Virus record (IMG/VR): IMGVR_UViG_3300037517_000124
Span: 1 to 28,923 of that record
Reading direction: 5' to 3' (one strand)
Length of the DNA stretch: 28,923 nt
Source of the DNA: a virus
Every line of letters starts with the position of its first letter. The stretch's first letter is position 1. Of this stretch, positions 2,529 through 24,867 are shown piece by piece. Made by a program: the position numbers and the translations under genes. Below the pieces are notes generated by a model. That model searched no databases and had not been told where the DNA came from. It saw only the letters and a program-made list of their open reading frames with translations.

Positions 2529-2997
2529 GGCGCAGCACAACTTGATGGCGATGGTTGCAAATAACCCATCTGCCGCCAAGCGCAAAGGAATCCCTCAGTC
2601 TGTCGGTCAGGAGTTCATGAAGGCAGACAAGGGTCGGAGGTTTGGTTCTGGCAACCGCGCAGATGCGCAGGTAATCAACAGGCCCAAAACCAATCAAGGC
2701 AAGATGGAACTTTTCTCAAGAGGTGGTGACATGAAAGAGTCGAAAGAGATGATGAAGAAGGAAGTGTCGTTCATGAAAAAGAAGGGTGCTCCAAAGTCCA
2801 TGATCAAGCATGAGATGGCCGAGGCTGGCATGAAGAAAATGGCCAACGGCGGCATCACCAAAGCCAAGATGGGCGCTGTTCGCACTGCCGCTCCCAGCAA
2901 AGATGGTCTGGCCGCCAAAGGTAAGACCAAAGGCACCATGGTCAAGATGTCTGGAAGCAAGCCCCTGGGCATGAAAAAGGGCGGCTACGCCTGCTAA
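2512..2997 (+). CDS. Basic protein, SKAQHNLM family, with tag-like motif near the C-terminus
   Basis: A 161-residue, strongly basic protein. The N-terminus (MPSKSKAQHNLMAMVANNP, then GIPQSVGQEFMKADKGRRF) belongs to a common phage family of unknown function. The middle is a Lys/Met-rich stretch. Nucleotides 2896-2946 encode SKDGLAAKGKTKGTMVKM, closely similar to the C-terminal tag of the genes ending at 4056, 4293 and 5331. Here a short extension ending MKKGGYAC follows it. The start lies inside the preceding gene. No enzymatic motif is seen; a virion-associated or DNA-binding role is inference. Confidence 0.75.
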   Translation: MPSKSKAQHNLMAMVANNPSAAKRKGIPQSVGQEFMKADKGRRFGSGNRADAQVINRPKTNQGKMELFSRGGDMKESKEMMKKEVSFMKKKGAPKSMIKHEMAEAGMKKMANGGITKAKMGAVRTAAPSKDGLAAKGKTKGTMVKMSGSKPLGMKKGGYAC

Positions 2998-3009
2998 TTG
3001 GAGGCCGAC

Positions 3010-4056
3010 ATGGCTAAAAGACGTATTCGCGCAGCAGAGCTTGCGGGTTTGGCCGCGCTTGGCGCTTTTGGTTACAACTTCTTTGGCCCAGGGCGCGACA
3101 AAAAGGCTGGGGAAAGACGTGCTGACGTAGAGTATCGAGGGACTGATCGTCCGCCCGCAGAAAGTGTTGCAGCCGCCCCAGCAGCCCCCGCAGTTTCGAC
3201 GGCCCCACAAGCTCAAAGACCTGTGGCCAGCGTTGATGACGGCGACATTGGCCGGTTTGCGGATGTTGGGTCCAACTTTAACGAAACTGGACAACCGTAC
3301 AATCCTGTTGGGTCGTCTGCCACTTATCGTCCGCGCCCTCGCCCTCCTTTTGTCGCCGACGATTCTCAGCGCAGGGCTAATGCCGCTGCTGATGCGATGT
3401 ACGAAAATCGCGCGTCTGCTAATCGGCGCACCAGTGTTGATCCCACCACTCTAGAGGGATATGGTGTAAACGAAGTTGGTCGTGGCAGGGCTCCCGTCTC
3501 GCGTGTTAATGCAAGCGCCCGCCAATACAACCAAGACAGCCAAGGGAATCGAGCAGGAACTCAAGCTGATGGCGGCCCGCCAATCACAGAAGAAATGCGT
3601 CGAAACCCAGTCGCAAGGATTCCCGGTCAAGATGCCAGGGCACCTGAAGATGGTCGTCGCGTGACTGGCGGCAATATCTCAAGGAATCTTGCAAATATGG
3701 CGGCTGCCCTTGGTCCAACCAGGGCTGCCGGATTTGGTAATGCCGCAGTTGAGGCCGCAACTGCAAGGGGTGCCCTTCAAAGGGCTGCTGCTGCACGGGC
3801 GGAGCGAACAGAAGCTGCTCGTCGCGGTCAAACGCCAACCAACCTCACGAGCACAAAATCAAGTTCAACCGCCAGGACGAACGAAGCCTCCAAGCGGACA
3901 AGAAAGTTTGACGAAGACTCTGAGAACGTTGAGTTTAAACGTGGCGGGAAGACAAAGGCCATGCCAAAGAAGATGGCTTCTGGCGGCATGTCGTCTGCAT
4001 CCAAACGCGCTGACGGCATTGCCTCCAAAGGCAAGACCAAGTGCAAAATGTACTAA
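3010..4056 (+). CDS. Disordered basic protein with hydrophobic N-terminus and C-terminal tag
   Basis: I start this 348-residue protein at the ATG at 3010, which has GGAGG at 3000-3004 with ideal spacing, rather than at the TTG at 2998. It begins MAKRRIRA, followed by a hydrophobic patch (AELAGLAALGAFGYNFF). The long middle is rich in Ala, Pro, Arg and Asn and probably disordered. It ends with KRADGIASKGKTKCKMY. The gene at 4816 has the same plan (MAKR, LAALGALGAIG patch, tag) with a different, shorter middle, so the two look like diverged duplicates. I do not recognise the middle. A virion-internal protein held by its tag is a guess. Confidence 0.75.
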   Translation: MAKRRIRAAELAGLAALGAFGYNFFGPGRDKKAGERRADVEYRGTDRPPAESVAAAPAAPAVSTAPQAQRPVASVDDGDIGRFADVGSNFNETGQPYNPVGSSATYRPRPRPPFVADDSQRRANAAADAMYENRASANRRTSVDPTTLEGYGVNEVGRGRAPVSRVNASARQYNQDSQGNRAGTQADGGPPITEEMRRNPVARIPGQDARAPEDGRRVTGGNISRNLANMAAALGPTRAAGFGNAAVEAATARGALQRAAAARAERTEAARRGQTPTNLTSTKSSSTARTNEASKRTRKFDEDSENVEFKRGGKTKAMPKKMASGGMSSASKRADGIASKGKTKCKMY

Positions 4057-4065
4057 GGGCAAACC

Positions 4066-4293
4066 ATGTCAGAAAAACCCAGGAAACCCAAGCAAGTCTT
4101 GAACCCTGCTGAACAGCAAATGATTCAGGAGGAAAAGGACAAGCAGATGGCCCCCAAGCTGGAAAGTGCTTACAACAAGGCGCTGACCACCACGGTTCCC
4201 GCTCCCGCCCCGGTTGACAAAAAAGCCAAGGGTGGCGTCACTCGCGCCGACGGCTGCATCACTAAGGGCCACACCCGTGGCAAGATGGTGTAA
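4066..4293 (+). CDS. Small basic protein ending in the shared C-terminal tag
   Basis: A 75-residue hydrophilic protein. The N-terminal half looks helical (LNPAEQQMIQEEKDKQMAP). A Pro-rich linker follows, then KKAKGGVTRADGCITKGHTRGKMV split as a Lys/Gly segment plus the tag. The tag occupies the last 17 codons (4240-4293). The gene starts 9 nt after the preceding stop. It is the simplest member of the tagged set: a helical head, a linker and the tag. Function is unknown. Confidence 0.72.
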   Translation: MSEKPRKPKQVLNPAEQQMIQEEKDKQMAPKLESAYNKALTTTVPAPAPVDKKAKGGVTRADGCITKGHTRGKMV

Positions 4294-4295
4294 AT

Positions 4296-4823
4296 ATGAT
4301 GTCCAGCCGTGGCATGGGGGCCATCAACCCCAGCAAGATGCCCAAGAAGAAGGTCATCCATCGTAAGGATGACCCGAATACCGTGGACATGTACGCGGCT
4401 GGCGGCGAGGTGGAATCAAAATTTGAGCCGGTTAAACCAAACTATGGCATGAGAGCCATGGGTGGCTCTGGAGAGACTGGTTCCGGTGCTGGCGGACGGT
4501 TTACGGTTCAAAAAAATCTTGGCAAAGACCTTGACCTTGAGGCGTATCTGGAAGGTCAAGCGTTTAAACCAAAGGGTATGTCGCCTAAAGGTGAGATAAC
4601 AGGTGGCGGAGTTAAATTGACCAAGAGGTTTGCCAAGGGTGGCAAGACAGAATCCAAGGTCAATCAGGCTGGTGTCTACACCAAGCCGGGTATGCGCAAG
4701 TCGCTGTTTGAGTCAATCAAGTCTCGGGCGGTGCAGGGCACAGGCGCAGGCCAATGGTCGGCCCGCAAGGCACAGTTATTGGCCAAGCAGTACAAAGCGA
4801 AAGGCGGTGGTTATCGTGGCTAA
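4296..4823 (+). CDS. Basic protein with C-terminal GQWSARKAQ domain
   Basis: A 175-residue protein starting at one of two adjacent ATGs (4296 or 4299), 2 nt after the preceding stop, with no clear ribosome site, so coupling is likely. The C-terminal third (YTKPGMRKSLFESIK, then GAGQWSARKAQLLAKQYKAK) is a short conserved domain of unknown function that I recall from phages and large DNA viruses of algae. Upstream are Gly-rich stretches with the A-x-GG type motifs YAAGGEV and FAKGGKT. It lacks the RADG tag but is embedded among tagged genes. A nucleic-acid-binding role would fit the charge but is not shown. Confidence 0.75.
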   Translation: MMSSRGMGAINPSKMPKKKVIHRKDDPNTVDMYAAGGEVESKFEPVKPNYGMRAMGGSGETGSGAGGRFTVQKNLGKDLDLEAYLEGQAFKPKGMSPKGEITGGGVKLTKRFAKGGKTESKVNQAGVYTKPGMRKSLFESIKSRAVQGTGAGQWSARKAQLLAKQYKAKGGGYRG

Positions 4824-5331
4824 AAGAAAAGCTCTTGGAACACTTGCTGCCCTTGGTGCGCTTGGTGCCATAGGCGCGGCTGCGTCACGAGGGCGCTCGG
4901 CTTCAAATGGGCCCCGGAAATTGGTGCTTTCGGATAGTTCCGGTGGCAGGGAAGAAATCGACCCGTTTTACAGGGATGTCGCAGAGGACATAACCAGTAA
5001 GCCCTTAATGACCAGGGGAAAAACTGCGGCTCAAGTCGCAGAGATGGTAAGAAACCCCATTGGCCGTGAAGCGACAGATTCAGAAATGAGACGCATTGCC
5101 GATATGGCGGAGCAGCTTCGCGGCAAGAAGTATGCTCGCACCGCAGCAGGAGCGCCAATTTTTACGGCGGACGGGGATGCCGTGCAGTTTGGTTCTAATA
5201 ACCCCCAGCCGATGTATGGCATGAAAAAAGGAGGCAAAGTGTCGTCCGCAAAAAGCGGCAAAACTGCCTCTGCATCGAGGCGCGGAGATGGTATTGTTCA
5301 ACGGGGTAAAACTCGCGGCAAGATGGTATGA
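4816..5331 (+). CDS. Basic protein with hydrophobic N-terminus and C-terminal tag
   Basis: I take the GTG at 4816, which overlaps the preceding stop by 8 nt and gives MAKRKALGTLAALGALGAIG. This start restores a strong likeness to the N-terminus of the protein at 3010, and AAAGGCGGTGG lies just upstream. The 171-residue protein has a folded-looking middle (EEIDPFYRDVAED, then SEMRRIADMAEQLRGKKY). It ends GMKKGGK, a short linker and RRGDGIVQRGKTRGKMV (5278-5331). The stop overlaps the next ATG as ATGA. Function is unknown. Shared ends and differing middles suggest duplication followed by divergence or domain replacement. Confidence 0.73.
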   Translation: MAKRKALGTLAALGALGAIGAAASRGRSASNGPRKLVLSDSSGGREEIDPFYRDVAEDITSKPLMTRGKTAAQVAEMVRNPIGREATDSEMRRIADMAEQLRGKKYARTAAGAPIFTADGDAVQFGSNNPQPMYGMKKGGKVSSAKSGKTASASRRGDGIVQRGKTRGKMV

Positions 5332-5561
5332 AAGACCCGCAGCAATCGCTCAAGGACTGGGGTGACCAGAAGTGGCGCACCAAGTCCGGCAAACCGTCTT
5401 CCAAGACGGGGGAGCGATATCTGCCTGAGAAAGCCATCAAGGCTCTCAGCCCAGCCGAGTATGCCGCTACGACTCGTGCCAAGCGGGCAGGCAAGAAGGC
5501 CGGGAAGCAGTTTGTGAAGCAGCCGCCCAAAGTGGCGGCAAAGACAGCAAGGTATCGGTGA
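5328..5561 (+). CDS. Small basic protein, KWRTKSGKPS / GERYLPEKAI family
   Basis: A 77-residue protein with 15 Lys and 6 Arg against 6 acidic residues. It carries LKDWGDQKWRTKSGKPS, KTGERYLPEKAIKAL and EYAATTRAKRAGKKAGKQF, which I recognise as a compact family of unknown function common in phages and also reported in large eukaryotic viruses. It starts by ATGA overlap and ends by TGATG overlap with the adaptor gene. High conservation of such a short basic protein suggests a structural or nucleic-acid-binding role. Confidence 0.8.
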   Translation: MKDPQQSLKDWGDQKWRTKSGKPSSKTGERYLPEKAIKALSPAEYAATTRAKRAGKKAGKQFVKQPPKVAAKTARYR

Positions 5562-6496
5562 TGGCTACCACATCCGGCGCAAGCAGTTTTAACCTTGACC
5601 TGACCGAGTTGGTCGAGGAGGCGTTTGAACGCGCCGGTTCAGAGTTGCGCACGGGCTATGACCTCAAAACTGCCCGACGCAGTTTAAACATCATGTTTGC
5701 CGATTGGGCGAACCGTGGCATCAACCTCTGGACGATTGAGCAGGGCACGATTGACCTTGTGCCGGGGCAGAACACCTACGCTTTGCCGACCGACACGATT
5801 GATCTTCTGGAGCATGTGATCCGCACTGGGGCCAACGTGGCAGCAACTCAGGCAGACCTGACCATCACCCGGATCAGTGTTTCCACCTACGCCACGCTGC
5901 CCAACAAGCTCCAGCAGGCCCGACCGATCCAAGTCTGGGTCCAGCGGTACAACGGCCAGCAGAGCCCGACCGGCCTGTCCATCAGCGGCGGTGGAATCAG
6001 TGCCACCGTCAATCAGATTACCCTCAACTCTGTGGTTGGCCTGCCCGCCACGGGGTTTATCAAGGTTGACTCTGAAATCATCAACTACGGATACATCTTA
6101 GGGAATACCCTATACAACTGCTTCCGGGGTCAGGCCGACACCACAGCCGCATCCCACGCCAACGGGGCAGCGGTTTACTGGCAGCAGCTTCCTGCTGTCA
6201 CGGTCTGGCCAACGCCGGACAACGCCCAGCAGTATCAGTTCGTGTACTGGCGTCTGCGCAGAACGCAGGATGCTGGTGGCGGTGTAAACGTCATGGATGT
6301 TCCCTTCCGGTTCATCCCGTGCATGGCGGCTGGCTTGTCCTATTACATCGCCGGGAAAATCCCTGGCGGCATGGAGCGACTGCCCATGCTGAAGGCCCAG
6401 TATGACGAGGCTTGGCAGTTGGCCGCCGATGAAGATCGTGAGAAGGCTGCGATTCGGTTCGTGCCCCGCCAGCAGTTCATTGGGAGCACTTACTGA
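5561..6496 (+). CDS. Head-to-tail adaptor-like protein (gp4-like) with inserted domain
   Basis: A 311-residue protein from the ATG at 5561 (TGATG overlap, AAGG at 5549-5552); a GTG at 5558 would add one residue. The N-terminal LVEEAFERAG, LKTARRSLNIMFADWANRG and VPGQNTYALP are typical of phage adaptor or accessory proteins that sit below the portal in short-tailed phages, like P22 gp4. The C-terminal PFRFIPCMAAGLSYYIAGK and AQYDEAW complete that helical core. Residues about 137-207 interrupt it with a beta module (LPATGFIKVDSEIINYG, FRGQADTTAASHANGAAVY). Relatives without the insert are shorter, from memory. It probably closes the portal and links it to the tail. Confidence 0.68.
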   Translation: MATTSGASSFNLDLTELVEEAFERAGSELRTGYDLKTARRSLNIMFADWANRGINLWTIEQGTIDLVPGQNTYALPTDTIDLLEHVIRTGANVAATQADLTITRISVSTYATLPNKLQQARPIQVWVQRYNGQQSPTGLSISGGGISATVNQITLNSVVGLPATGFIKVDSEIINYGYILGNTLYNCFRGQADTTAASHANGAAVYWQQLPAVTVWPTPDNAQQYQFVYWRLRRTQDAGGGVNVMDVPFRFIPCMAAGLSYYIAGKIPGGMERLPMLKAQYDEAWQLAADEDREKAAIRFVPRQQFIGSTY

Positions 6497-6918
6497 TGGG
6501 CAACAGGTTTGCCAGTGGTAAGTATGCGATTGCTCAGTGTGACCGCTGCGATCAGCGGTACATGCTTTCGCAACTTCGTCGTGAGGTCGTCAAAACCAAG
6601 AACTACGAACTGCTGGTGTGCCCGGAATGTTGGGACCCGGATCAGCCGCAGTTGCAGTTAGGCATGTACCCGGTGGATGACCCGCAGGGTTTGAGGAATC
6701 CTCGTCCAGACCGCAGCTACAGGCTTTCTGGGACCAGCGGATTGCAGGTTGAGGTGGGCTCGGGTCCATTGGGTACTGGAACGGTAGAGGGCGGGAGTCG
6801 CATATTTCAATGGGGATGGAACCCAGTTGGTGGTTCTTCATTTTTCACCGCAAACGAAACGCCAAACAACTTGGTGTTGTCGGTGAATTTGGGTACAGTT
6901 ACAGTTGCAACGACATAA
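6496..6918 (+). CDS. Zinc-ribbon virion-type protein
   Basis: A 140-residue protein starting by TGATG overlap with the adaptor gene. Two CxxC pairs, C15/C18 (CDRC) and C42/C45 (CPEC), separated by 23 residues, form a clear zinc-ribbon. The motif VCPECWDPDQPQLQLGMYPV and RNPRPD follow. The C-terminal half is Gly/Ser/Thr-rich and beta-like. I recall similar proteins in aquatic short-tailed phages next to the adaptor, annotated only as structural. Its placement suggests a head-tail junction part, with zinc stabilising a small fold. A regulatory DNA-binding role is the alternative. Confidence 0.72.
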   Translation: MGNRFASGKYAIAQCDRCDQRYMLSQLRREVVKTKNYELLVCPECWDPDQPQLQLGMYPVDDPQGLRNPRPDRSYRLSGTSGLQVEVGSGPLGTGTVEGGSRIFQWGWNPVGGSSFFTANETPNNLVLSVNLGTVTVATT

Positions 6919-6928
6919 GGAGTCGATC

Positions 6929-7096
6929 ATGATGGACGCAAAGAAGGCAGTGCATAAGCACGAAAAGGCCATGCACCCCGGCAAACCCATGACCAAGATG
7001 CGTGCTGGTGGCAAGACCAACAGCGACATGCTCAAGATGGGCCGCAATATGGCCAAGATTGCCAACCAGAAGTCCCCTGGCCGCAAAGGAGCCTAA
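6929..7096 (+). CDS. Very small Lys/Met-rich basic protein
   Basis: A 55-residue protein starting at the ATG at 6929 (or 6932), with AAGGAG at 6917-6922; an upstream TTG at 6905 is less likely. It reads as a helical KKAVHKHEKAMHPGKPMTK, then MRAGGKTNSDMLKMGRNMAK, ending GRKGA. It contains the A-x-GG-type motif seen across this genome but no RADG tag. I recall similar short proteins in uncultured phages, without known function. It forms a tight pair with the next gene. Confidence 0.7.
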   Translation: MMDAKKAVHKHEKAMHPGKPMTKMRAGGKTNSDMLKMGRNMAKIANQKSPGRKGA

Positions 7097-7097
7097 G

Positions 7098-7298
7098 ATG
7101 GCTACGTACAAACAACCTACAAAAGTAGCATCGGTTGTGGTAGGTGAAGAACCCGCCAAGACGACCATGCGCAAGGCCAATGTGGCTGTGGCCAACACCC
7201 GCAGTCAAGACTACCCGCCGATGAAAACCAGCGGCATCAAGATTCGCGGCACTGGCTGTGCAACTAAAGGTGTGATGGCTAGGGGTCCGATGGCATGA
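7098..7298 (+). CDS. Small basic protein ending in a variant C-terminal tag
   Basis: A 66-residue protein; the ATG at 7098 follows AAGGAG at 7086-7091 and begins one base after the previous stop. The last residues, IKIRGTGCATKGVMARGPMA, follow the same spacing as the tag at 4056, 4293 and 5331 (R-G-x-G-C-x-x-K-G), but end in PMA. This C-terminal motif is one I recall from many aquatic phage proteins of unknown function. The stop overlaps the next start as ATGA. It is probably a virion or assembly protein, by context. Confidence 0.72.
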   Translation: MATYKQPTKVASVVVGEEPAKTTMRKANVAVANTRSQDYPPMKTSGIKIRGTGCATKGVMARGPMA

Positions 7299-8002
7299 AC
7301 TACGCTGCCCTGTCTGCTGCAATTCAGGACTACACCCAGAACTACGAAACGGAGTTCGTGGCGAATATCCCTGTCTTCGTCAAACAGGCAGAGCAGCGCA
7401 TCTACAACACGGTTCAGTTCCCGTCGCTGCGCAAGAACGTCACAGGCTCGACTTCGACGAACAACAAGTACTTGGCGTGTCCTGGCGATTTTTTGGCCGC
7501 TTACTCTATGGCGGTTGTGACGGGCGTTACGGGCGGCAACATCAATACCGGCTCGTACGAGTACTTGCTCAACAAGGATGTGAACTTCATCCGGCAGGCA
7601 TACCCAACGCCAAATGACACCGGGGTTCCCAAGTACTACGCGCTGTTTGGGCCGACGGTATCGGGCACGACGATCTCCGATGAGCTGTCTTTCATCCTTG
7701 GTCCGACCCCAGACGGCGTGTACTATGTTGAGCTGCACTACTATTACTACCCGGAATCAATCGTTACGGCGAGCACTTCTTGGCTGGGCGACAACTTCGA
7801 TTCAGTTTTGCTCTACGGCTCTCTGGTCGAAGCGTACACGTTCATGAAGGGTGAGGCCGACATGATGGCTTTGTATGACGGCAAGTACAAGGAAGCCCTC
7901 ATGCTGGCCAAACGTCTGGGCGATGGCCTTGAGCGCAGCGATGCATACCGCAGTGGTCAGTACCGCACACCCCCGCTGCCGCAGAATAATGGGGTGGCAT
8001 GA
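7295..8002 (+). CDS. Phage adaptor-like / tail connector protein
   Basis: A 235-residue protein starting by ATGA overlap. Motifs IQDYTQNYETEF, FVKQAEQRIYNTVQFPSLRKN, YEYLLNKDVNFIRQAYP, LGPTPDGVYYVELHYYYYP and LYGSLVEAYTFMKGE are those of a widespread family I know as phage adaptor proteins (I believe the SU10-adaptor type, not checked). Such proteins form a ring between portal and tail nozzle. The length is normal and there is no break. Together with the gene at 5561 there are two adaptor-type candidates. Which one contacts the portal cannot be told from sequence. Confidence 0.68.
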   Translation: MNYAALSAAIQDYTQNYETEFVANIPVFVKQAEQRIYNTVQFPSLRKNVTGSTSTNNKYLACPGDFLAAYSMAVVTGVTGGNINTGSYEYLLNKDVNFIRQAYPTPNDTGVPKYYALFGPTVSGTTISDELSFILGPTPDGVYYVELHYYYYPESIVTASTSWLGDNFDSVLLYGSLVEAYTFMKGEADMMALYDGKYKEALMLAKRLGDGLERSDAYRSGQYRTPPLPQNNGVA

Positions 8003-9212: not shown

Positions 9213-12200
9213 GTGGCTGCAAGGTTCTGGGTCGGTGGTACGGGCACTTGGAACTCGACCAACACAGCTAATTGGTCTGCAACATCTGGCGGTGCTGGCG
9301 GTGCATCTGTTCCCGGCGCGGCTGACGATGTAACCATCAACACTGCTTCGATTACCGTCACAACAGATTACAACGTATCTGTAATTTCGGTTACGATTAA
9401 CGCTTCCGCTGCGACATTAAGTCTTGGCGGTACGTTGACTTGCTCTGGTGCTATCACCCTTACCCAAGGAACCTTCACCACCAACAACTTCAACGTCACT
9501 GCAACAGCCCTATCGTCCAACAACAGCAACACCCGCACGATCAATCTGGGCAGCAGTACGGTTACGGTGACTGCAAACACGGCGATAATTTTTACCAGCA
9601 CAACAAACATGACGTTTAATGCTGGAACGTCACAAATAAATTTGTCAGGAGCTACTGCCACCATTAATAGCGGTGGTTTGACGTTTTACAACGTATCTTT
9701 TACAGATACCACTGCTGCAACTCGCGTAATTACTGGCGCGAACACATTCAACAACTTAACCGTTTCTGGCCCAGCATCTGCTGGCGTTGTTCAACTCACT
9801 TTCGACTCTCGCCAAACCATCAACGGCACACTGTCCACCACAGGCACAGCAGGAAACCGCCGTGTTTGGTTCCGTGGTGCCACCTACGGCATTGCCCAAA
9901 CCCTCACCATCAACAGCGCACCAAGCCTGACTGATGCTGATTTCCGTGACATCTACGTCATTGGCACTGCTGCACCGATCAGCGGCACAAGGATTGGCGA
10001 TCTGCGTGGCATCAGGGGGATCACTGCGTCTACACCAAAGACGGTGTATTGGAACTTGGCAGGAGCGCAAAACTGGTCGGCAAACGGCTGGGCTACAACA
10101 TCTACAGGTACACCATCCACAGACAACTTTCCGTTGGCTCAGGACACGGCTACGTTTACCAATGCCGGGAGTGTGACTGGCACGATTACGCTTGATGCTG
10201 CCATTCCATATACGGGCACTGTAGATATGTCTGGTCGGACAAGCGCAATGACGCTTGGAGGATCAACGGCCTATGAGGTGTACGGAAATTGGGTGCTTGG
10301 TAGTGGGGTAACTCAAAGCTATTCTGGTACTTTGTCATTTTCAGGTCGTAATACACAGACTATTACTAGCGCCGGAAAGACTCTTTCGAGCGCAATCACC
10401 GTAAATTCTTACGGCGGCACAGTTGAACTTGCTGATGCGCTGAACATTGGCAGCAACAGCCTCGCCGTCACCAACGGCACGTTTGACACCAAGAACTTCA
10501 ACGTCACTGCTGGTTCTTTAACTTCCACTAACAGCAACGTCAGGACGATTACTCTGGGGTCGAGTACGGTGACGTTGAGTGGATCGTCTCCGGTAACTTT
10601 TACAACAAGCACAAACTTGACGTTCACTGCTGGAACATCACAGATTAACATGAGCAATAGCTCCACTTTTAGTGGAGGCGGCGTTTCTTTTTACAACATA
10701 TCTTTTACTGGAACTGGCGCAGGAGTTGCTCACCAAATATCAGGAACAAACACATTTAACGCCATTACGGTAACAGCCCCAGCGTCTGCGGGTCTAACAG
10801 GGCTCTTGTTCAGTGCAAACCAAACCATCAACGGAACTTTGACCTGCGCTGGAGCCACAGCAGTACGCCGTATCTTCCTGCGCTCTGACACCCTTGGCAC
10901 TCCCCGCACATTAACCGTCAACAGCCTGTCAGCCACTGACTGCGACTTCCGTGACATCACAATAGCTGGCACTGCTGCTGGCTCATCGCCTACCCGTGCT
11001 GGTGACTGCGGTGGCAATACAGGCATCACGTTCCCTGCGGCCAAGACGGTGTACTGGAACTTGGCTGGAAGTCAGAACTGGAGTGCTACAGCTTGGTGTC
11101 CATCGTCTGGGGGTACGCCTGACATCAATCAGTTTCCATTGGCTCAAGACACGGCTGTCTTTGATAACGCTGGTACTGTTGGCACTGTTACGGTTCAAAC
11201 AGCATGGAACATTGGCACGTTAAATATGTCGGGCAGAACTACTGCTTGCACAATTGACTGGTCAAACGGCAGCCCGACTTATTACGGCGATGTGCTTTTA
11301 GGTTCTGGTGTAACACCGGGAACTATTGGTTTTTCCACTATGGGTAAAAGGGGAACGCAAACCATCACAAGTAGTGGGAATACGTGGAGTGGGGCGATGA
11401 CTATCGACTCCGCGACAGGCACGGTACAACTGGCAGACGCTCTGACACTTATTGCTGCACGAACCCTAACCCTGACCAGCGGCACGTTTGATGCTGTGAC
11501 GTACAACGTGACAACGGGATTGTTTACAGGCGCATTTTCAACTATTAAAACATTAAAAATGGGTTCCGGTACATGGACGTTAACAGGAACAGGCAATGTC
11601 TGGAATTTTTCGGGTGCGGCATCGTTTGTAAATTTTTATAAGGGAACCGCAAACATTATTTTGTCTGATACTAGTTCAACAGCAAGAAATTTTCAGGGTG
11701 ACGGTCTTTCCTACAACAAACTTACCATCGGCGGCACAACGGGCACATCAACTCTGACCATCGGTGGCAACAACCAATTCACCGAACTAGCCTCCACCAA
11801 GACCGTAGCCCATACCATTGCCCTTGGCACAACCACACAGACCTTTGGCGCTTGGACGGTCACAGGCACAGCAGGTAACGTGGTCACAGTCACAGGTACT
11901 GCTGCTTTGACGATTGCTGGTGCAGCGGTGTCAGGCGTGGATTACTTGGCGCTTGGCACAACCACAGTCAGCGCAACAAGCCCCGGTGAGTTCTACGCTG
12001 GTGCAAACAGCACGGCAACTTCTGCGGCTGCTCCTTTGTACTTGACTGCCAAGCCTGCCGACAGCACCCGATACTGGGTTGGCGGCGCGGGCAACTGGAG
12101 CGACACGGCTCGGTGGTCTACGTCTTCTGGTGGCGGCTCTGGAGCCTCTGTGCCCCGCAGCCATGATGATGTGGTGTTTGACTCACTGTCCAACGCTACT

Positions 12201-13800
12201 GCCTACACGGCCACGGTAAATGCCGTCACTGGAGGCATCAGAACAAAGGCGCTGACGATTGCTGGGCCTTTGACGGGCAACCTGACGCTGGCCGGATCAA
12301 CTGCAATTGTTGGTATTCACGGCAACGTGACGCTGCCCGCAACGGGCCTGACGAGGACGTACACGGGTGACATTACTTTATCTGGATCGGCTACGGGGCG
12401 TACACTGACAACCAATGGCGTTGTACTGGCATCTAGTGTTGTGCTTAACGGTGTAAATTCTGGCTGGACACTTGGAAGTGCTTTTGATAATACGGCAACC
12501 AGTGCAGATTTTACTGTTACTAACGGAACGTTTAACACTGGAAACTTCAATCTTACAACCAGAATTTTTTCCTCAGACAATTCAAACTCAAGAACAATAA
12601 CATTTGGTTCTTCCACTGTTTTATTAAACTTTGCAAGTTCTCCTGCGCTTAATTTTGGCACAACTGAATCAGTTCGTGCTGGATTAACCTTTAACTCAAA
12701 CACATCTCAGATTAATTTTTCTGGAGCAAGCTCTGGCATTTCGGGAAACAACCAAACGTTTTACAACGTAGCCTTTACCAGCACATCCGCAGGCACAGTT
12801 ACCATCAACGGAGCAAACACCTTCAACAACCTGTCGGTCACAGGCATTACCTCTGCTGGCCTGAAGAACGTATCTCTCACAGCCAACCAAACCATCAACG
12901 GCACACTGACGCTTTCCGCTGGCACTAACGCCACGATGCGGCACTTCGTCCGCTCAGACACCATTGGCACAACCCGCACACTGACCTGCGCTGCTTTCTC
13001 AGGAACAGATGCAGACTTCCGTGACATCACCATTGCTGGTGCTGCTGCCCCTGTCAGTGGTACTCGTTTGGGTGATTGCAAAGGCAACAGTGGGATTACG
13101 TTCCCTGCGGCTAAGACGGTCTATTGGAACTTTGCCACAACGGCAAGCTGGAGCGGTGTTGTGTGGGCATCGTCAATTGGCGGCACACCAGACAACATTT
13201 ATTTCCCTCTTGCCCAAGACACAATTGTGTTTCCCAGTTCTTCACCAAATAGCGGTGTAACTGTGAGTCTTGGCAACTCTTACAACATCGGCACGATTGA
13301 TATGTCTGCCCGTACCAGCAACACAATGACGCTGGCAACGAGTACGAATACACCAGCAATCTACGGCAACTGGATCAATGGTACTGGCACAACGCTGACG
13401 GGTACGGGTGTGATGACCTTTGCAGGGCGTGGCAGCCAAACGATTACAAGTGCTGGCATTACGTTTACGCAACCTTTTACGTTTGACACTCCTGGTGGAT
13501 CAGTCACGCTACAAGACAATTTTTTCCCAGGCAGAAACACAAGCGGTGCGGTCATTCTTACTTCTGGAACATTTAATGCTAATGGGTATAACGTTACTTT
13601 TGCTGGGTCAACTAGCGGGATGCAAAGCTCAGGAACAGCAATAAGGACACTTTCTTTTGGTTCTGGTACATGGACTTTTGCTGGAGCGTCTACGCCATTT
13701 ACTGCTGTGTCTACCAACCTCACCGTCACAGGCACAGGCACGATCAGCCTCACCAATGCATCTGCCAAGACGTTTGCTGGCGGCGGCATCTCCTACTCAG
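9213..13800 (+). repeat. Coding repeats: five W-rich headers with beta-solenoid modules
   Basis: The header plus following module recurs roughly every 335-350 codons after the first, shorter interval (about 272 codons). DNA identity is still visible: TTCCCTGCGG followed by AAGACGGT and GGAACTT occurs at about 11031 and 13101. The arrays arose by internal duplication and could recombine with each other or with related phages. Confidence 0.75.
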
Positions 13801-15125
13801 GCATCACCCTTGACCAAGGCGGAGCTGGTGCATTGACCATCACAGGCAACAACACCTTTGCCAACATCACCAACACCTACAGCGCAACGGGTGCAACGAA
13901 CATCACCATTGGCACGACAACGCAGCGTGTAACGCAATGGACGGCCACAGGGGCGGCAACTCGGGTTCTGACGGTACAGGGCACATCTGCATCCAGCCCC
14001 GGCACATTGATCCTGACAGGCGGCACAGACCCCAGCGTCGATTATTTGGCAGTCACTGGGGTACGGGCATACAGTCTTGATACCACATGGTATGCGGGGG
14101 CCAACTCAACCAACAACGGTTCGCTGGGCTGGTATTTTGAAGCTGGCGTGGTGGCAATTACCGCCACCATTTCTGAGACATCCACTGCAACCGATGCGGT
14201 ATCTGCGGTACTCACATACGTTTCAAGCATCAGCGAAACGTCCACAGCAACGGACACTGTAGGCGCACCGGGCAGCACATTTAACCCCAGCCTGTCTGAA
14301 GCAGCCACGGCAACGGACGCTGTCGCAGGCACACTGACCTTGCTGGCGCAGGTGGCTGACGCCCTCACTGGCACAGACACTGTAGCTGCCACGCTTGCAA
14401 TCAATCGTAGCGTTTCTGAAACTGCTACGGCAACGGACGCAACAGCAGGCAGGTTTGCGTTTGCCGGCATTATTCTGGAGTCCGCCACGGCCACAGATGC
14501 GACCAGCACAACTGGCACATTCAATCCCAGCCTTGCAGAAACCAGCACGGCAACCGACTCGGACAGCGCCAGCGGAGTGTTCAATCCCAGCCTGTCTGAA
14601 ACCGCCACGGCTACAGACGCGCCCAGCACGGCCAACAACACGTTCAACCCAAGCCTTGCGGAAACGGCTACGGGGACTGACAGCCCGGTTGCCAATCTGA
14701 GTGTTGCTGGCGCTGTTTCCGAAACCGCCACTGCCACGGATACAACTCAATCGGTGGTAATTTTTGTGGGGGCAGTATCTGAAACTGCCACGGCAACTGA
14801 TCTGATCAGCGCCCTGACTAACTTCTTGGGGCAGATTGCAGAGACGGCTACGGCAACGGACATTACGCTGGTGGCCCCGTCAGTGTTTGGCCCGCAGGTT
14901 CAAGAGGCTGTTGCCGCGCTGGACTTGGTGTCTACCTTTGCCACGTTCAATGTTCAGCTTGTGGAGTCCGCCACGGTGCTGGACTCCGTCATTGGGGCAT
15001 TCCTGTGGAACCTGATCGACGACAACCAGAACCCCAACTGGGTGGTCATCTCGACCCCGCAGAACCCCGGTTGGTCAGTCATAGATGACAGCCAGAACCC
15101 GAACTGGCAAAATACCGACGCATAA
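9213..15125 (+). CDS. Giant modular repeat protein, probable adhesin or tail fibre (1970 aa)
   Basis: A 1970-residue protein from a GTG start 2 nt after the previous stop, with GGGGG upstream. It is Thr/Ser/Asn/Gly-rich and almost free of Lys-rich regions, like secreted beta-solenoid adhesins. It has five repeated headers: RFWVGGTGTWN near residue 4, VYWNLAGAQNW near 276, VYWNLAGSQNW near 611, RYWVGGAGNWS near 952 and VYWNFATTASW near 1301. Between them are beta-helix-like blocks (GTLTCSGAITL, NTFNNLTVSGPASAG). Residues about 1650-1930 are 14 imperfect SETATATD repeats. The protein ends with three QNP[NG]W motifs. It has no signal peptide and sits inside virion genes, so a virion receptor-binding protein is the best inference. 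No enzymatic motif is visible. Confidence 0.78.
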   Translation: MAARFWVGGTGTWNSTNTANWSATSGGAGGASVPGAADDVTINTASITVTTDYNVSVISVTINASAATLSLGGTLTCSGAITLTQGTFTTNNFNVTATALSSNNSNTRTINLGSSTVTVTANTAIIFTSTTNMTFNAGTSQINLSGATATINSGGLTFYNVSFTDTTAATRVITGANTFNNLTVSGPASAGVVQLTFDSRQTINGTLSTTGTAGNRRVWFRGATYGIAQTLTINSAPSLTDADFRDIYVIGTAAPISGTRIGDLRGIRGITASTPKTVYWNLAGAQNWSANGWATTSTGTPSTDNFPLAQDTATFTNAGSVTGTITLDAAIPYTGTVDMSGRTSAMTLGGSTAYEVYGNWVLGSGVTQSYSGTLSFSGRNTQTITSAGKTLSSAITVNSYGGTVELADALNIGSNSLAVTNGTFDTKNFNVTAGSLTSTNSNVRTITLGSSTVTLSGSSPVTFTTSTNLTFTAGTSQINMSNSSTFSGGGVSFYNISFTGTGAGVAHQISGTNTFNAITVTAPASAGLTGLLFSANQTINGTLTCAGATAVRRIFLRSDTLGTPRTLTVNSLSATDCDFRDITIAGTAAGSSPTRAGDCGGNTGITFPAAKTVYWNLAGSQNWSATAWCPSSGGTPDINQFPLAQDTAVFDNAGTVGTVTVQTAWNIGTLNMSGRTTACTIDWSNGSPTYYGDVLLGSGVTPGTIGFSTMGKRGTQTITSSGNTWSGAMTIDSATGTVQLADALTLIAARTLTLTSGTFDAVTYNVTTGLFTGAFSTIKTLKMGSGTWTLTGTGNVWNFSGAASFVNFYKGTANIILSDTSSTARNFQGDGLSYNKLTIGGTTGTSTLTIGGNNQFTELASTKTVAHTIALGTTTQTFGAWTVTGTAGNVVTVTGTAALTIAGAAVSGVDYLALGTTTVSATSPGEFYAGANSTATSAAAPLYLTAKPADSTRYWVGGAGNWSDTARWSTSSGGGSGASVPRSHDDVVFDSLSNATAYTATVNAVTGGIRTKALTIAGPLTGNLTLAGSTAIVGIHGNVTLPATGLTRTYTGDITLSGSATGRTLTTNGVVLASSVVLNGVNSGWTLGSAFDNTATSADFTVTNGTFNTGNFNLTTRIFSSDNSNSRTITFGSSTVLLNFASSPALNFGTTESVRAGLTFNSNTSQINFSGASSGISGNNQTFYNVAFTSTSAGTVTINGANTFNNLSVTGITSAGLKNVSLTANQTINGTLTLSAGTNATMRHFVRSDTIGTTRTLTCAAFSGTDADFRDITIAGAAAPVSGTRLGDCKGNSGITFPAAKTVYWNFATTASWSGVVWASSIGGTPDNIYFPLAQDTIVFPSSSPNSGVTVSLGNSYNIGTIDMSARTSNTMTLATSTNTPAIYGNWINGTGTTLTGTGVMTFAGRGSQTITSAGITFTQPFTFDTPGGSVTLQDNFFPGRNTSGAVILTSGTFNANGYNVTFAGSTSGMQSSGTAIRTLSFGSGTWTFAGASTPFTAVSTNLTVTGTGTISLTNASAKTFAGGGISYSGITLDQGGAGALTITGNNTFANITNTYSATGATNITIGTTTQRVTQWTATGAATRVLTVQGTSASSPGTLILTGGTDPSVDYLAVTGVRAYSLDTTWYAGANSTNNGSLGWYFEAGVVAITATISETSTATDAVSAVLTYVSSISETSTATDTVGAPGSTFNPSLSEAATATDAVAGTLTLLAQVADALTGTDTVAATLAINRSVSETATATDATAGRFAFAGIILESATATDATSTTGTFNPSLAETSTATDSDSASGVFNPSLSETATATDAPSTANNTFNPSLAETATGTDSPVANLSVAGAVSETATATDTTQSVVIFVGAVSETATATDLISALTNFLGQIAETATATDITLVAPSVFGPQVQEAVAALDLVSTFATFNVQLVESATVLDSVIGAFLWNLIDDNQNPNWVVISTPQNPGWSVIDDSQNPNWQNTDA
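14161..15000 (+). repeat. Fourteen imperfect SETATATD repeats, about 20 codons each
   Basis: The core [SA]E[TS][AS]TATD recurs 14 times with short hydrophobic spacers that often contain FNPSL. The last two copies are diverged (QEAVAALD, VESATVLD). This is coding repeat DNA, not a CRISPR: spacing varies and the reading frame is kept throughout. A shaft or spacer domain is the likely role. Confidence 0.85.
15022..15123 (+). repeat. Three QNP[NG]W motifs at the adhesin C-terminus
   Basis: Within the last 34 residues, DDNQNPNW, TPQNPGW and DDSQNPNW occur at intervals of 11-12 residues. Two of the copies also share the preceding IDD. They stand apart from the SETATATD array and close the protein, so they may be an anchoring or tip segment. 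Confidence 0.75.
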
Positions 15126-22725: not shown

Positions 22726-24867
22726 ATGAGCCTTCAACAAGCCGCCCAGTACTTGGCAGCGCAGGGGCGTGGCCCCGACACAATGCTTGTTCACATGACC
22801 CCTCGGGAGGTTGCTGGACTCGATGAGCTTGCAAGAGCTTATTACGGTCGGTCGTTGCCCACCAACCCAAAGACTGGCCTCCCAGAAGCAAACTTCCTTA
22901 AAAAAGTTGCGCTTCCTATGTTGGCTGGCGCTGTTTTGGGGCCCGCTGGGTTTGGTTTAACTGCTGGGCAAGCGGCTTTGACGGCGGGCGCAATCCGTGG
23001 TGCCACCTCTGGCAGTCTTGAGAAGGGTATTGCGTTTGGTCTTGGTGCTTATGGTGGCGCGGGGTTGTCCGGTGCTCTGTTGAATACGGGTACGCAAATG
23101 GCGGCAAACACTGCCGTTGCCGGAGACCTTGGGGCCGCAGCCGGAGATTCTGCTCTAACCGCTACGCAAGCAGCGCAAGCGGCAAAAGCTTCTCCTCTTT
23201 CGACTATGGGCCAAGGGGCTAAGGGTCTCTTTGAGAAAGAAGGTCGAGATATATTCATGAAGGAAGCTGGCGGCCTCTCCGGGCTCTCCCAGTACGGCAT
23301 GGCAGCCGCTGCCCCGGCGCTGATGGCCCCACAAACAACCACGCCCATGCCCACATCAAATGGCGTGAGGCGGCAGTACTATTCATTTGACCCCGGTCGC
23401 AGACAAGACCCCGAAGCAGGTTACACGGGGCCAAGGTCTGGAGAGCGCACGTACTTCAACCCCACGTTTAGACGCCTCCCAGAACCAGGGATGGCTGAAG
23501 GCGGATCAACAAGCCGATTCAGTGGAAATGCATATTTAAACAACCTTGCGCGGCAGTCTGTTCCAAGCCCGACAGCCGGGCTTACTCCTCTTGAAAAACC
23601 ATTTGAAAGCGAAGAGGAGCATGAGTACATTTACGACCCGATTACTCAACGTTTTAGACGCGCCAAAAAACCAAAAAAACAAGATGACAACAAGCTTGGC
23701 AGTTCAGTGAGCGACCAATTTCCTCCCTTGGATACTGGTGGCGGGATCGGTACTGGCATGGATTCAGGTAGTACGCTTGGCGATTTTGGCCACAGCATGG
23801 GCGATGCCGGTGTTGGCGCAATTAGTCTTGGTCAGGGGTTGTCTGCACTTGGGGTTGGGCTTGGGTTTAACGCGGGGGCGACTGGAAGTGGGCGCGGGGG
23901 TTGGGGGGATGCAATATCAAATTACGGCATCGACCAGCTTGGCAGAGCAGAGGCTCAGGCTGCTGCTGACAGCACCGCGTATGGCCGAGGGCCAACTGGG
24001 GACGCTGCTGCCGCCGCCGCCGCTGCTGCTGGTTACGCTGCCGCTGATGCCCAAGCCGGGGATGCAGCTTTCGGGGGTGCAAGTTTTGGCAATACCGCTG
24101 CAAGTAACAACACCGCAGGATTGAGTGCTGCTGCTGGTGATTCTAATGCTAGTACCAGTGGCACCAGGGGGTTAGGGTCGAGTACTGGCAACACTGCGGG
24201 CCTGGGCAATGCCGCTGCGAGTAGCAACAACGCAGGATTAGCTGCTGCCCTCGCTGCCGCAGAGATAAGCGCGGCAATGGATGCAGCATCTGCGCAGGCG
24301 GCGGCAGATCAAGCCGCTGCTGCTGCTGCTGCTGAGTCGATGGGTAGTGCCTTGGCGGCAGATCAAGCTGCTGCCGCTGCTGATGCCGCTGCCGATGCCG
24401 CCTCCGCCGATGCTGCCGCTGGTGCGGCGGGTGCTGCCGCTGGCGCTGATGCGGGCTCTGGCTTGGGGTATGGTGGTGATGGGTATGGTGGCACTGGGGA
24501 TGGTAGCGGGGGTTTTTACGCCGAGGGTGGCACTATTAACCGCAACATGGGCGGCATCAGTTCTTATGCTGGCGGCGGCTACAACCTCGGGGACTACTCT
24601 GACGGCGGCAGGCTGCTGCGTGGCCCTGGTGATGGGGTGTCCGACTCCATCCCTGCGGTGATTGGTCAGAGGCGTCCTGCGCGGCTTGCTGATGGCGAGT
24701 TTGTTATTCCGGCCCGCATCGTCTCTGAGCTTGGGAATGGATCAACTGAGGCGGGCGCTCGTAAGCTTTACGCCATGATGGATCGCGTGCAGCGGGCGCG
24801 TGGAAAAACCACTGGTAAGGGCAGGGTGGCCAAGAATACCCGTGCCGACAAATACTTGCCCGCATAA
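22726..24867 (+). CDS. Large Ala/Gly-rich virion protein, probable internal (ejection) protein
   Basis: A 713-residue protein with GTGAGG before its ATG. The N-terminus has GRGPDTMLVHMTPREVAGLD and NPKTGLPEANFLKK, then a Gly/Ala hydrophobic region (residues about 64-120). I recall this combination from uncultured phages. Residues about 425-605 are low-complexity poly-alanine and Gly-rich. Motifs MAEGGST, YAEGGTI, YAGGGYN and YSDGGRL link it to the small tagged proteins. Residues 633-713 (GPGDGVSDSIPAVI, RLADGEFVIPARIVSELGNG, ARKLYAMMDRVQRAR) are a conserved C-terminal domain of unknown function. Its place after the tail genes matches the first internal protein of short-tailed phages. That role is inference. 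Confidence 0.68.
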   Translation: MSLQQAAQYLAAQGRGPDTMLVHMTPREVAGLDELARAYYGRSLPTNPKTGLPEANFLKKVALPMLAGAVLGPAGFGLTAGQAALTAGAIRGATSGSLEKGIAFGLGAYGGAGLSGALLNTGTQMAANTAVAGDLGAAAGDSALTATQAAQAAKASPLSTMGQGAKGLFEKEGRDIFMKEAGGLSGLSQYGMAAAAPALMAPQTTTPMPTSNGVRRQYYSFDPGRRQDPEAGYTGPRSGERTYFNPTFRRLPEPGMAEGGSTSRFSGNAYLNNLARQSVPSPTAGLTPLEKPFESEEEHEYIYDPITQRFRRAKKPKKQDDNKLGSSVSDQFPPLDTGGGIGTGMDSGSTLGDFGHSMGDAGVGAISLGQGLSALGVGLGFNAGATGSGRGGWGDAISNYGIDQLGRAEAQAAADSTAYGRGPTGDAAAAAAAAAGYAAADAQAGDAAFGGASFGNTAASNNTAGLSAAAGDSNASTSGTRGLGSSTGNTAGLGNAAASSNNAGLAAALAAAEISAAMDAASAQAAADQAAAAAAAESMGSALAADQAAAAADAAADAASADAAAGAAGAAAGADAGSGLGYGGDGYGGTGDGSGGFYAEGGTINRNMGGISSYAGGGYNLGDYSDGGRLLRGPGDGVSDSIPAVIGQRRPARLADGEFVIPARIVSELGNGSTEAGARKLYAMMDRVQRARGKTTGKGRVAKNTRADKYLPA
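24003..24466 (+). repeat. Poly-alanine low-complexity tract with in-frame 54-nt duplication
   Basis: Runs of GCT/GCC/GCG codons make up much of this stretch. GGCGGCAGATCAAGC occurs at 24300-24314 and again at 24354-24368, exactly 18 codons apart, which shows an in-frame duplication. Such tracts change length by slippage. Confidence 0.75.

Follow-up and report, generated by a model that had tools for sequence, protein, structure and literature searches.

What do small basic proteins of one phage have in common when they end in nearly the same short peptide and otherwise look different? This question is raised by a podovirus-like IMG/VR contig of 28.9 kb, the whole of which was analysed and is called the window here. 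The tags are located between its capsid and adaptor genes, and all features of the window described below lie on the plus strand.

Tag copies of the window and their gene setting

The sequence-only reading of this DNA had picked out five tag copies, all of which were confirmed in sequence and position. Three of them form class A, each followed by a stop codon. The tag KRADGIASKGKTKCKMY (4003–4056) ends the protein T1 (3010–4056), which has 348 aa, an N-terminal LAALGA segment and the GG motifs FKRGG and MASGG, and falls into no PHROG or Pfam family. The tag TRADGCITKGHTRGKMV (4240–4293), with KKAKGG just before it, ends T2 (4066–4293), a protein of 75 aa with a predicted single helix at residues 14–41 and then a disordered tail carrying the tag; the AlphaFold2 model of T2 had a mean pLDDT of 59.5, and the blocks across residues 51–75 had about 48–54. 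The tag RRGDGIVQRGKTRGKMV (5278–5331) ends T3 (4816–5331), which is about 171 aa long when read from a GTG start and has an N-terminal LAALGALG segment and an MKKGG motif; the stop of T3 overlaps the ATG of the next gene (ATGA). The class B tag IRGTGCATKGVMARGPMA, also with a stop (7242–7298), ends a protein of 66 aa (7098–7298). No convincing PHROG or Pfam match, including the known ejection protein families, was obtained for these tagged proteins. The fifth copy, SKDGLAAKGKTKGTMVK (2896–2946), is internal and lies 17 residues from the end of a small basic PSKSKAQ-family protein (2512–2997; phrog_16759; tag HMM E 7e-4), which has three GG motifs and an N-terminus similar to two virion structural phrogs.

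The major capsid protein (3–851) is of the HK97-fold Phage_capsid_4 or Mu gpT type (PF25209, E 5e-16; phrog_371, E 1e-18) and lacks its N-terminus because the contig starts inside the gene. It is a candidate receptor or container for the tagged proteins. The class A island is bounded by an SU10-adaptor-like head-tail protein (5558–6496; PF24175, E 7e-7), and a second protein of the SU10_adaptor family (7295–8002; PF24175, E 1e-21; phrog_2941, virion structural protein) is encoded directly 3' of the class B gene. In cultured relatives, scaffold-like, GroES and capsid genes stand immediately upstream. Sequence searches of the PDB with a related capsid and with the adaptor-like protein of the window gave no usable relative.

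Other small basic proteins are encoded near the tagged ones. A DUF6321 protein (2069–2323; PF19846, E 1.7e-19) is untagged in the window and has a C-terminal tag in some relatives, where the tagged copies form one body cluster; L357 also has a tagged copy. A conserved untagged protein with GG motifs (4296–4823; phrog_17747) served as a marker of the island and has relatives in HTVC034P, HMO-2011, CRP-1 and MEP402, and a further small basic protein (6929–7096) contains an MRAGG motif. The DUF6321 and PSKSKAQ proteins are net basic, as are the neighbours g175, p14910 and g55. Like the tagged proteins, the DUF6321, PSKSKAQ and phrog_17747 proteins are basic, of unknown function and located in the same island, but they are conserved families, some with a tag, whereas many other tagged bodies belong to no family. 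From the literature on the cultured relative HTVC023P and on DUF6321, no function of the small basic proteins could be learned.

Occurrence and form of the tag

The tag was searched for in 80 relatives chosen by their capsid together with the window. A C-terminal regular expression matched 74 of the 6,175 plus-strand ORFs and none of the 8,101 minus-strand ORFs. With a tag HMM, the coding strand gave all of the 103 domains found (E<0.01), and reversed proteins gave none. We therefore reject a chance origin of the tag; such a profile search of relatives had been set beforehand as a test, and the tag came out well above chance. The consensus of the region is SSASKRADGCAxRGKTRGKMV, with the GG motif just N-terminal to it. 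D, G, G and T are fixed at 91–93% and A at 79–83%, and K and R are interchangeable at three positions. The net charge of the tag is about +4.5, and every tagged protein is net basic.

Class A had two to six matches in 15 of 16 long records, all within one stretch that follows the capsid and spans no more than ~5 kb, and class B had exactly one copy in 15 of the 16; six further genomes agreed with this pattern. At least one C-terminal tag was present in 67 of the 70 loci having both capsid and adaptor, and up to five different C-terminally tagged proteins were found per contig. The class B tag had been taken for a variant of the others. It does have the core RxxGxAx[KR]G in common with them (hhalign E 0.012), but nothing beyond this core, and it is better treated as a separate class with one member per genome. 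Marine relatives frequently have a related motif at the C-terminus, RGxGAAx[KR]G.

The description of the tag as C-terminal holds for most copies. In relatives, the general motif had 140 matches, and although the search required no stop, every one lay 5–11 residues from the C-terminus. Among 392 tagged ORFs, the match was located at most three residues from the end in 266 and at most 50 in 125. Besides the internal copy of the PSKSKAQ protein, rare N-terminal copies exist in one gene of phage DSL-LC04 and in some homologues of the 6929–7096 gene, where the tag-like motif reads ADGITKxGKTKGKNLG.

Tags in isolates were identified by reading individual loci, and the statements on isolates refer to those loci only; searches of cultured phages by tblastn with short tag queries gave no matches, probably owing to the low-complexity filter and the short length. 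The protein UMO75986.1 of Planktothrix phage Pag-Yong1 ends in RDGCAKRGRTKGRFI. No convincing tag was seen in HTVC027P, CRP-902, QDWS535 and GB2A, though their capsids are homologous. A third class, C, is located among portal, scaffold and adaptor genes; gp32 and gp51 of HTVC023P have class C ends. Five of the 11 class C records tested, one from a divergent group, had a Phage_capsid_4 capsid; since the other six, among them two long records (46.5 and 56.8 kb), gave no capsid match, the link of the tag to this capsid type is incomplete.

The class A tag was also sought, as a DNA pattern, in 84,980 species genomes of bacteria and archaea, which together amount to 257 billion bases. The single match came from a metagenome bin, on a contig of 5.9 kb that belongs to the same type of phage, and the class A form was present in no cellular gene of these genomes. 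The tag is restricted in lineage, and a host-targeting signal by mimicry of a common cellular address is therefore disfavoured.

Unrelated bodies and selection on the peptide

The rest of each tagged protein had been described as different, and the comparison of the bodies bore this out. T1 and T3 showed no BLAST similarity outside the tag, and none of the 171 same-contig pairs of tagged proteins in relatives had detectably similar bodies; homology of the full-length proteins had been named beforehand as an outcome that would speak against a shared address, and it was not seen. Singletons made up 71 of the 129 tagged bodies. Only 12% of tagged bodies fell into families of at least five, versus 87% of untagged genes matched by position. 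Loci with unrelated tagged bodies had capsids 82–95% identical to that of the window. Within one tagged family, AKGG and the tag stayed constant, and the bodies and linkers varied.

The observation that the DNA of the tags differs at third codon positions was likewise upheld, as comparable four-fold sites differed in 58% of cases within a contig and in 60% between contigs. Because the synonymous sites vary so widely, we conclude that the peptide is under selection. The four-fold divergence, the unrelated bodies and the low share of bodies that fall into families led us to reject full-length homologues or recent tandem copies.

An N-terminal segment of the LAALGALG type was found by pattern in 12 of 262 bodies, and only 8% had a stretch of 19 residues with a Kyte-Doolittle mean of at least 1.2. 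By these two counts the segment is not a general feature, and it was rejected as a common membrane anchor.

The GG motif and the possible role of the tag

A second element, missed by the sequence-only reading, stands next to the tag. A motif of the [MYF]xxGG type precedes 99.6% of 258 tags versus 35% in shuffles. It was present in 9 of 10 tagged proteins versus 11 of the remaining 309 proteins, and in all eight ejection-type proteins versus 4 of 36 other large proteins. In the window, a predicted DNA ejection protein of 832 aa (24888–27386; phrog_4287 'DNA ejection protein', E 3.6e-12) contains YADGG and MAEGG, and the adjoining protein of 713 aa (22726–24867) contains MAEGG, YAEGG and YSDGG; both carry the motif without the tag. 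The motif is the only resemblance of the tagged proteins of the window to the phrog_4287 protein. It is common to tagged and ejection proteins and is not found in adaptors. Its role may be that of an additional contact, or of a site for cutting at maturation.

That the tagged proteins bear a common address read by one receptor is the part of the earlier proposal that is well supported: the peptide is conserved although its synonymous sites have diverged, the bodies are non-homologous, and the tags are restricted to one stretch of morphogenesis genes. Of the three receptors considered there, that for head packaging is favoured because the tag-adjacent GG motif is common to predicted DNA-ejection proteins and rare elsewhere in the genome; host targeting through a mimicked cellular address lost ground. 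We give an even chance to the reading that the tag and the GG motif form a cargo-targeting signal which loads variable small basic proteins into the prohead, to be released together with the DNA when the phage infects. The peptide stands at the C-terminus of small basic proteins that are mostly disordered and, as a set, hypervariable; it would bring this cargo into the prohead during assembly, presumably by binding the HK97-fold shell on its inner face, or else the scaffold. The tagged proteins would thus be virion components; they would exit with the DNA and enter the host, where their bodies might act in host takeover or DNA organisation. The accessible literature yielded no virion proteomics of a tagged protein.

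Several other explanations were weighed against this one. That the tag docks variable plugs or connector subunits onto the portal-adaptor neck, outside or below the head, is in our view doubtful. The island does have capsid genes on one side and adaptor genes on the other, an SU10-adaptor gene directly adjoins the class B gene, class C tags occur among portal, scaffold and adaptor genes, and adaptor genes as neighbours are equally consistent with a neck function. However, gene order does not discriminate between neck and head because phages group all their morphogenesis genes; the few identical sites of a neck fit poorly with up to five different tagged proteins per contig, and the GG motif is a feature of ejection proteins, not of adaptors. 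A DNA-binding tail, histone-like or condensing, that covers or compacts the genome, be it inside the cell or inside the head, and needs no protein receptor would account for the charge, the net basic neighbours and the interchange of K and R, but charge alone does not explain the fixed D, G, G, T and A, and neighbouring proteins more basic than the tagged ones occur without the tag. We consider it unlikely.

Quite improbable is a role in assembly only, in which non-virion factors would bind the scaffold or capsid and then be released. The scaffold-like, GroES and capsid genes upstream in cultured relatives agree with it, and a basic tag could bind the net-acidic scaffold or capsid; yet hypervariable bodies would not be expected beside so conserved a capsid. 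The adjacency of the tagged genes and the overlap of 65 of 262 tag stops with a possible start of the next gene could also suggest remnants of duplication or conversion, or a recombination or translation signal in the DNA, with no function of the peptide. Four-fold divergence that is equal within and between contigs, the lack of similar same-contig bodies and a peptide that stays constant while bodies and linkers change make this highly improbable.

If the tag is indeed a loading signal, it provides a sequence rule by which cargo without homologues can be recognised, and ORFs that cannot be annotated become one defined class, whose location can be tested. Where the capsid has the HK97 fold, it would also serve as a compact encapsidation tag at the C-terminus. 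Most of the phages concerned are uncultured, and they are common both in fresh water and in the sea; the question which molecules other than DNA such abundant aquatic phages inject would become directly approachable. Cargo involved in an arms race would be expected to look like this, with a constant address and bodies that change more quickly than the genes around them. On the most far-reaching reading, to which we give somewhat less than an even chance, sequence alone would suffice to find hundreds of unknown ejected effectors, with the tag as bait.

By analogy, the best reading is that the tag works like the capsid-targeting sequence (CTS) of T4 or the targeting peptides of encapsulins, to which it is unrelated in sequence. 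The internal proteins of T4 are diverse, with the targeting sequence as their only conserved part (PMC3012670), and they are injected with the DNA and act against host defences (PMC3012670, PMC7697877). The CTS of IPI, IPII and IPIII resembles the tag in being one short conserved peptide on diverse small proteins, which here are putative cargo. It is, however, N-terminal, about 10 residues long and cut off by the head protease, whereas the tag is C-terminal, about 17 residues long, rich in Gly, Lys and Arg and preceded by the GG motif. The tagged phages also differ from T4 in their Mu gpT-type capsid and in having no recognised protease; as regards removal by a protease, the adjacent [MYF]xxGG-type motif is conserved, and Pfam and PHROG profile searches found no maturation protease family among the genes scanned.

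Encapsulin targeting peptides are short, mostly C-terminal and sometimes N-terminal, and are read on unrelated cargo by an HK97-fold shell (PMC8346489). The tag, too, has a few N-terminal copies, and here, likewise, an HK97-fold shell gene (PF25209 / phrog_371) is near the tags, including those of the divergent tag-bearing group. The encapsulin consensus SDGSLGIGSLKRS with its TVGSL core (PMC8346489) is absent from the tag consensus, and encapsulins are cellular nanocompartments, unlike infectious virions, in which the tag would bind the capsid. In phage P1, an N-terminal peptide of under 30 residues sends the antirestriction cargo DarB into the head (PMC9024508). No consensus is seen in the N-terminal signals of the P1 Dar proteins, whereas here one consensus is common to all tagged proteins.

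Occurrence and anatomy of the tag

The window (28,923 bases, IMG/VR virus record) consists entirely of phage late genes. The capsid gene (3-851) is followed by a series of small basic genes between 2069 and 7298, interrupted once by an adaptor-like gene; also present are another gene of the SU10-adaptor type, genes for the tail and fibres, a lysozyme, and two adjoining large proteins of 713 aa (22726-24867) and 832 aa (24888-27386). The 59,275-base record G017 has 91.5% of sampled 31-mers in common with the window and represents almost the same phage. The protein encoded at 9213-15125 (1,970 residues) is repetitive, with long imperfect repeats and a run of ETATATD-like units at its C-terminus.

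The sequence-only reading had described a short tag shared by otherwise unrelated proteins, and all five of its motifs were found where it placed them: three of class A (4003-4056, 4240-4293, 5278-5331), one of class B (7242-7298) and one internal (2896-2946). For the comparison, 80 relatives were gathered by capsid similarity and hence independently of the tag. The C-terminal regular expression gave 74 matches on the coding strand and none in 8,101 minus-strand ORFs; in the capsid-selected loci, the class A profile found 103 domains at E<0.01 and none in reversed proteins, which places the tag above chance. As the profile seeds were picked by a regular expression fixing DG and [RK]G, conservation at those positions is partly built in, yet over 258 profile hits, which this expression does not constrain, conservation of D, G, G and T remains at 91-93%. 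A DNA pattern for GKTRGKMV-stop identified 115 loci, each with marker genes of this lineage.

Long records hold 2-6 matches to class A (SSASKRADG[CI]AxRGKTRGKMV), at most about 5 kb past the capsid gene. Class B (KTxGIKIRGTGAATKGxMARGPMA) lies a few kb beyond class A, as a single copy in 15 of the 16 long records. Both contain RxxGxAx[KR]G, and the profile comparison (E 0.012) is no more than suggestive of a relationship. A third form, class C (RGxGAAx[KR]Gxx[FY]), is frequent among marine relatives; its stop-free DNA pattern matched 120 stretches, whose 140 protein matches all lay 5-11 residues from a C-terminus. The tag is preceded by a second element, overlooked in the sequence-only reading: a GG motif (xxxGG; usually MAKGG, YKSGG or FKKGG), found in 99.6% of 258 tagged proteins versus 35% in shuffled tails and often directly adjoining the tag in class C. 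The position is not strictly C-terminal. The PSKSKAQ protein (2512-2997) holds an internal copy, and N-terminal copies occur in certain homologues of the 6929-7096 gene and in one gene of phage DSL-LC04, where a class B-like motif (RGMGCATRGGGAV) begins a small protein (L201:22953-23180) encoded immediately upstream of the adaptor gene.

Conserved peptide and variable bodies

Within a contig, 58% of comparable four-fold sites differ between tags, and between contigs 60% (241 tags); 71% is expected when third bases are drawn independently from the pooled composition. Since the two divergences are about equal, the tags of one genome did not arise by recent duplication. Selection acts on the peptide, and not on the DNA or the bodies (the proteins minus the tag).

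No body similarity was detectable in any of 171 pairs of tagged proteins from the same contig. When untagged genes from the same interval, between capsid and adaptor in 70 loci, served as a position-matched control, 87% of them fell into clusters of five or more, versus 12% of tagged bodies; of the 129 tagged bodies, 71 were singletons. BLAST may over-split short disordered sequences, yet the untagged controls were even shorter (median 72 versus 92 residues). In a multi-member tagged family, AKGG and the tag are kept while bodies and linkers change.

The bodies are short (median 86 residues ahead of the tag) and almost never net acidic (2%), with 65% disorder-promoting residues, compared with 47% for the capsid, the adaptor and neighbouring genes. 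The low-confidence model of T2, a tagged protein of 75 residues (4066-4293; mean pLDDT 59.5), weakly suggests a single helix and, after it, a disordered tail holding the tag. Three small basic families, DUF6321 (2069-2323), VYPSAYANAYA and PDLTGDGxITxADVLKGRGVF (the latter two exemplified at L201:22277-22465 and L199:26635-27018), are conserved and, throughout these phages, recur beside genes for the capsid and tail, in some cases with the tag fused on; PDLTGDGxITxADVLKGRGVF looks like an EF-hand loop.

The GG motif and a candidate head-targeting signal

In four near-complete genomes, [MYF]xxGG occurs in 9 of 10 tagged proteins and 8 of 8 homologues of the 713 aa and 832 aa proteins, but in just 11 of 309 remaining genes. 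Other large proteins have it in 4 of 36 cases (Fisher p 3e-6), though genes from such related genomes do not count as independent. A match to phrog_4287, 'DNA ejection protein' (E 3.6e-12), was obtained for the 832 aa protein. In ejection-type proteins of this kind, the third position of the GG motif is often D or E, and the tag is lacking. Both large proteins contain repeated [MY]A[DE]GG motifs, the GG motif being kept in relatives; the 713 aa protein additionally holds a PGDGVSDSIPAVIGQRRPARLADGEFVIPA segment.

We favour the reading that the C-terminal unit would be a head-targeting signal for cargo varying between strains, which the HK97-fold shell or the scaffold would recognise. The data show that the unit is conserved, modular, set in its position, tied to a lineage and accompanied by a shared GG motif; from this it is inferred that the tagged proteins lie in the virion, bind a receptor, are ejected and have a function as cargo. 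The head interior is preferred over the neck, indirectly, mainly because the GG motif is common to tagged and ejection-type proteins. Mimicry of a cellular address is disfavoured: across 84,980 genomes of bacteria and archaea, the exact class A DNA pattern matched once, on a contig from this type of phage.

Terminal targeting peptides on diverse cargo are already known. Published precedents are the capsid targeting sequence of T4, which alone is conserved among highly diverse internal proteins (PMC3012670) and is removed by the head protease (PMC7697877), the P1 DarB signal (PMC9024508), and encapsulin targeting peptides, which act on an HK97-fold shell (PMC8346489). The tag would act in the manner of these signals. 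Because the T4 and P1 signals are N-terminal and the encapsulin consensus does not match, it was classed with none of them. No prior description of the motif was found in the open-licence papers searched; as far as tested, it is new in sequence, terminus, phage group and scale.

Distribution among phages

Class A tracks a single phage lineage, whose members have a Phage_capsid_4 capsid, a scaffold-like protein of phrog_28737 and adaptors of the SU10 type. In the cultured loci examined, it occurs in Pag-Yong1, MinM2 and Pra-JY27, in one identical 308 aa protein, and class C-like ends were seen in gp32 and gp51 of pelagiphage HTVC023P. Despite their homologous capsids, HTVC027P, CRP-902, QDWS535 and GB2A gave no convincing tag. 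One divergent group with class C, which lacks the usual portal and adaptor clusters, nevertheless has a Phage_capsid_4 capsid; a capsid match was absent in 6 of 11 class C records tested, some of them fragments.

The contig L357 (CAIMTR010000124.1), placed in the bin of a gammaproteobacterial metagenome genome, comes from this phage lineage: it is a fragment encoding the capsid, DUF6321, five tag-profile hits and the adaptor; its binning is either a host hint or a binning error. The cyanophage records OL906435.1, OQ594354.1 and PP438419.1 (L197, L198) state different hosts, yet each is 65,014 bases long, their capsids match with equal scores and their tagged protein is identical, so that they look like one phage recovered three times.
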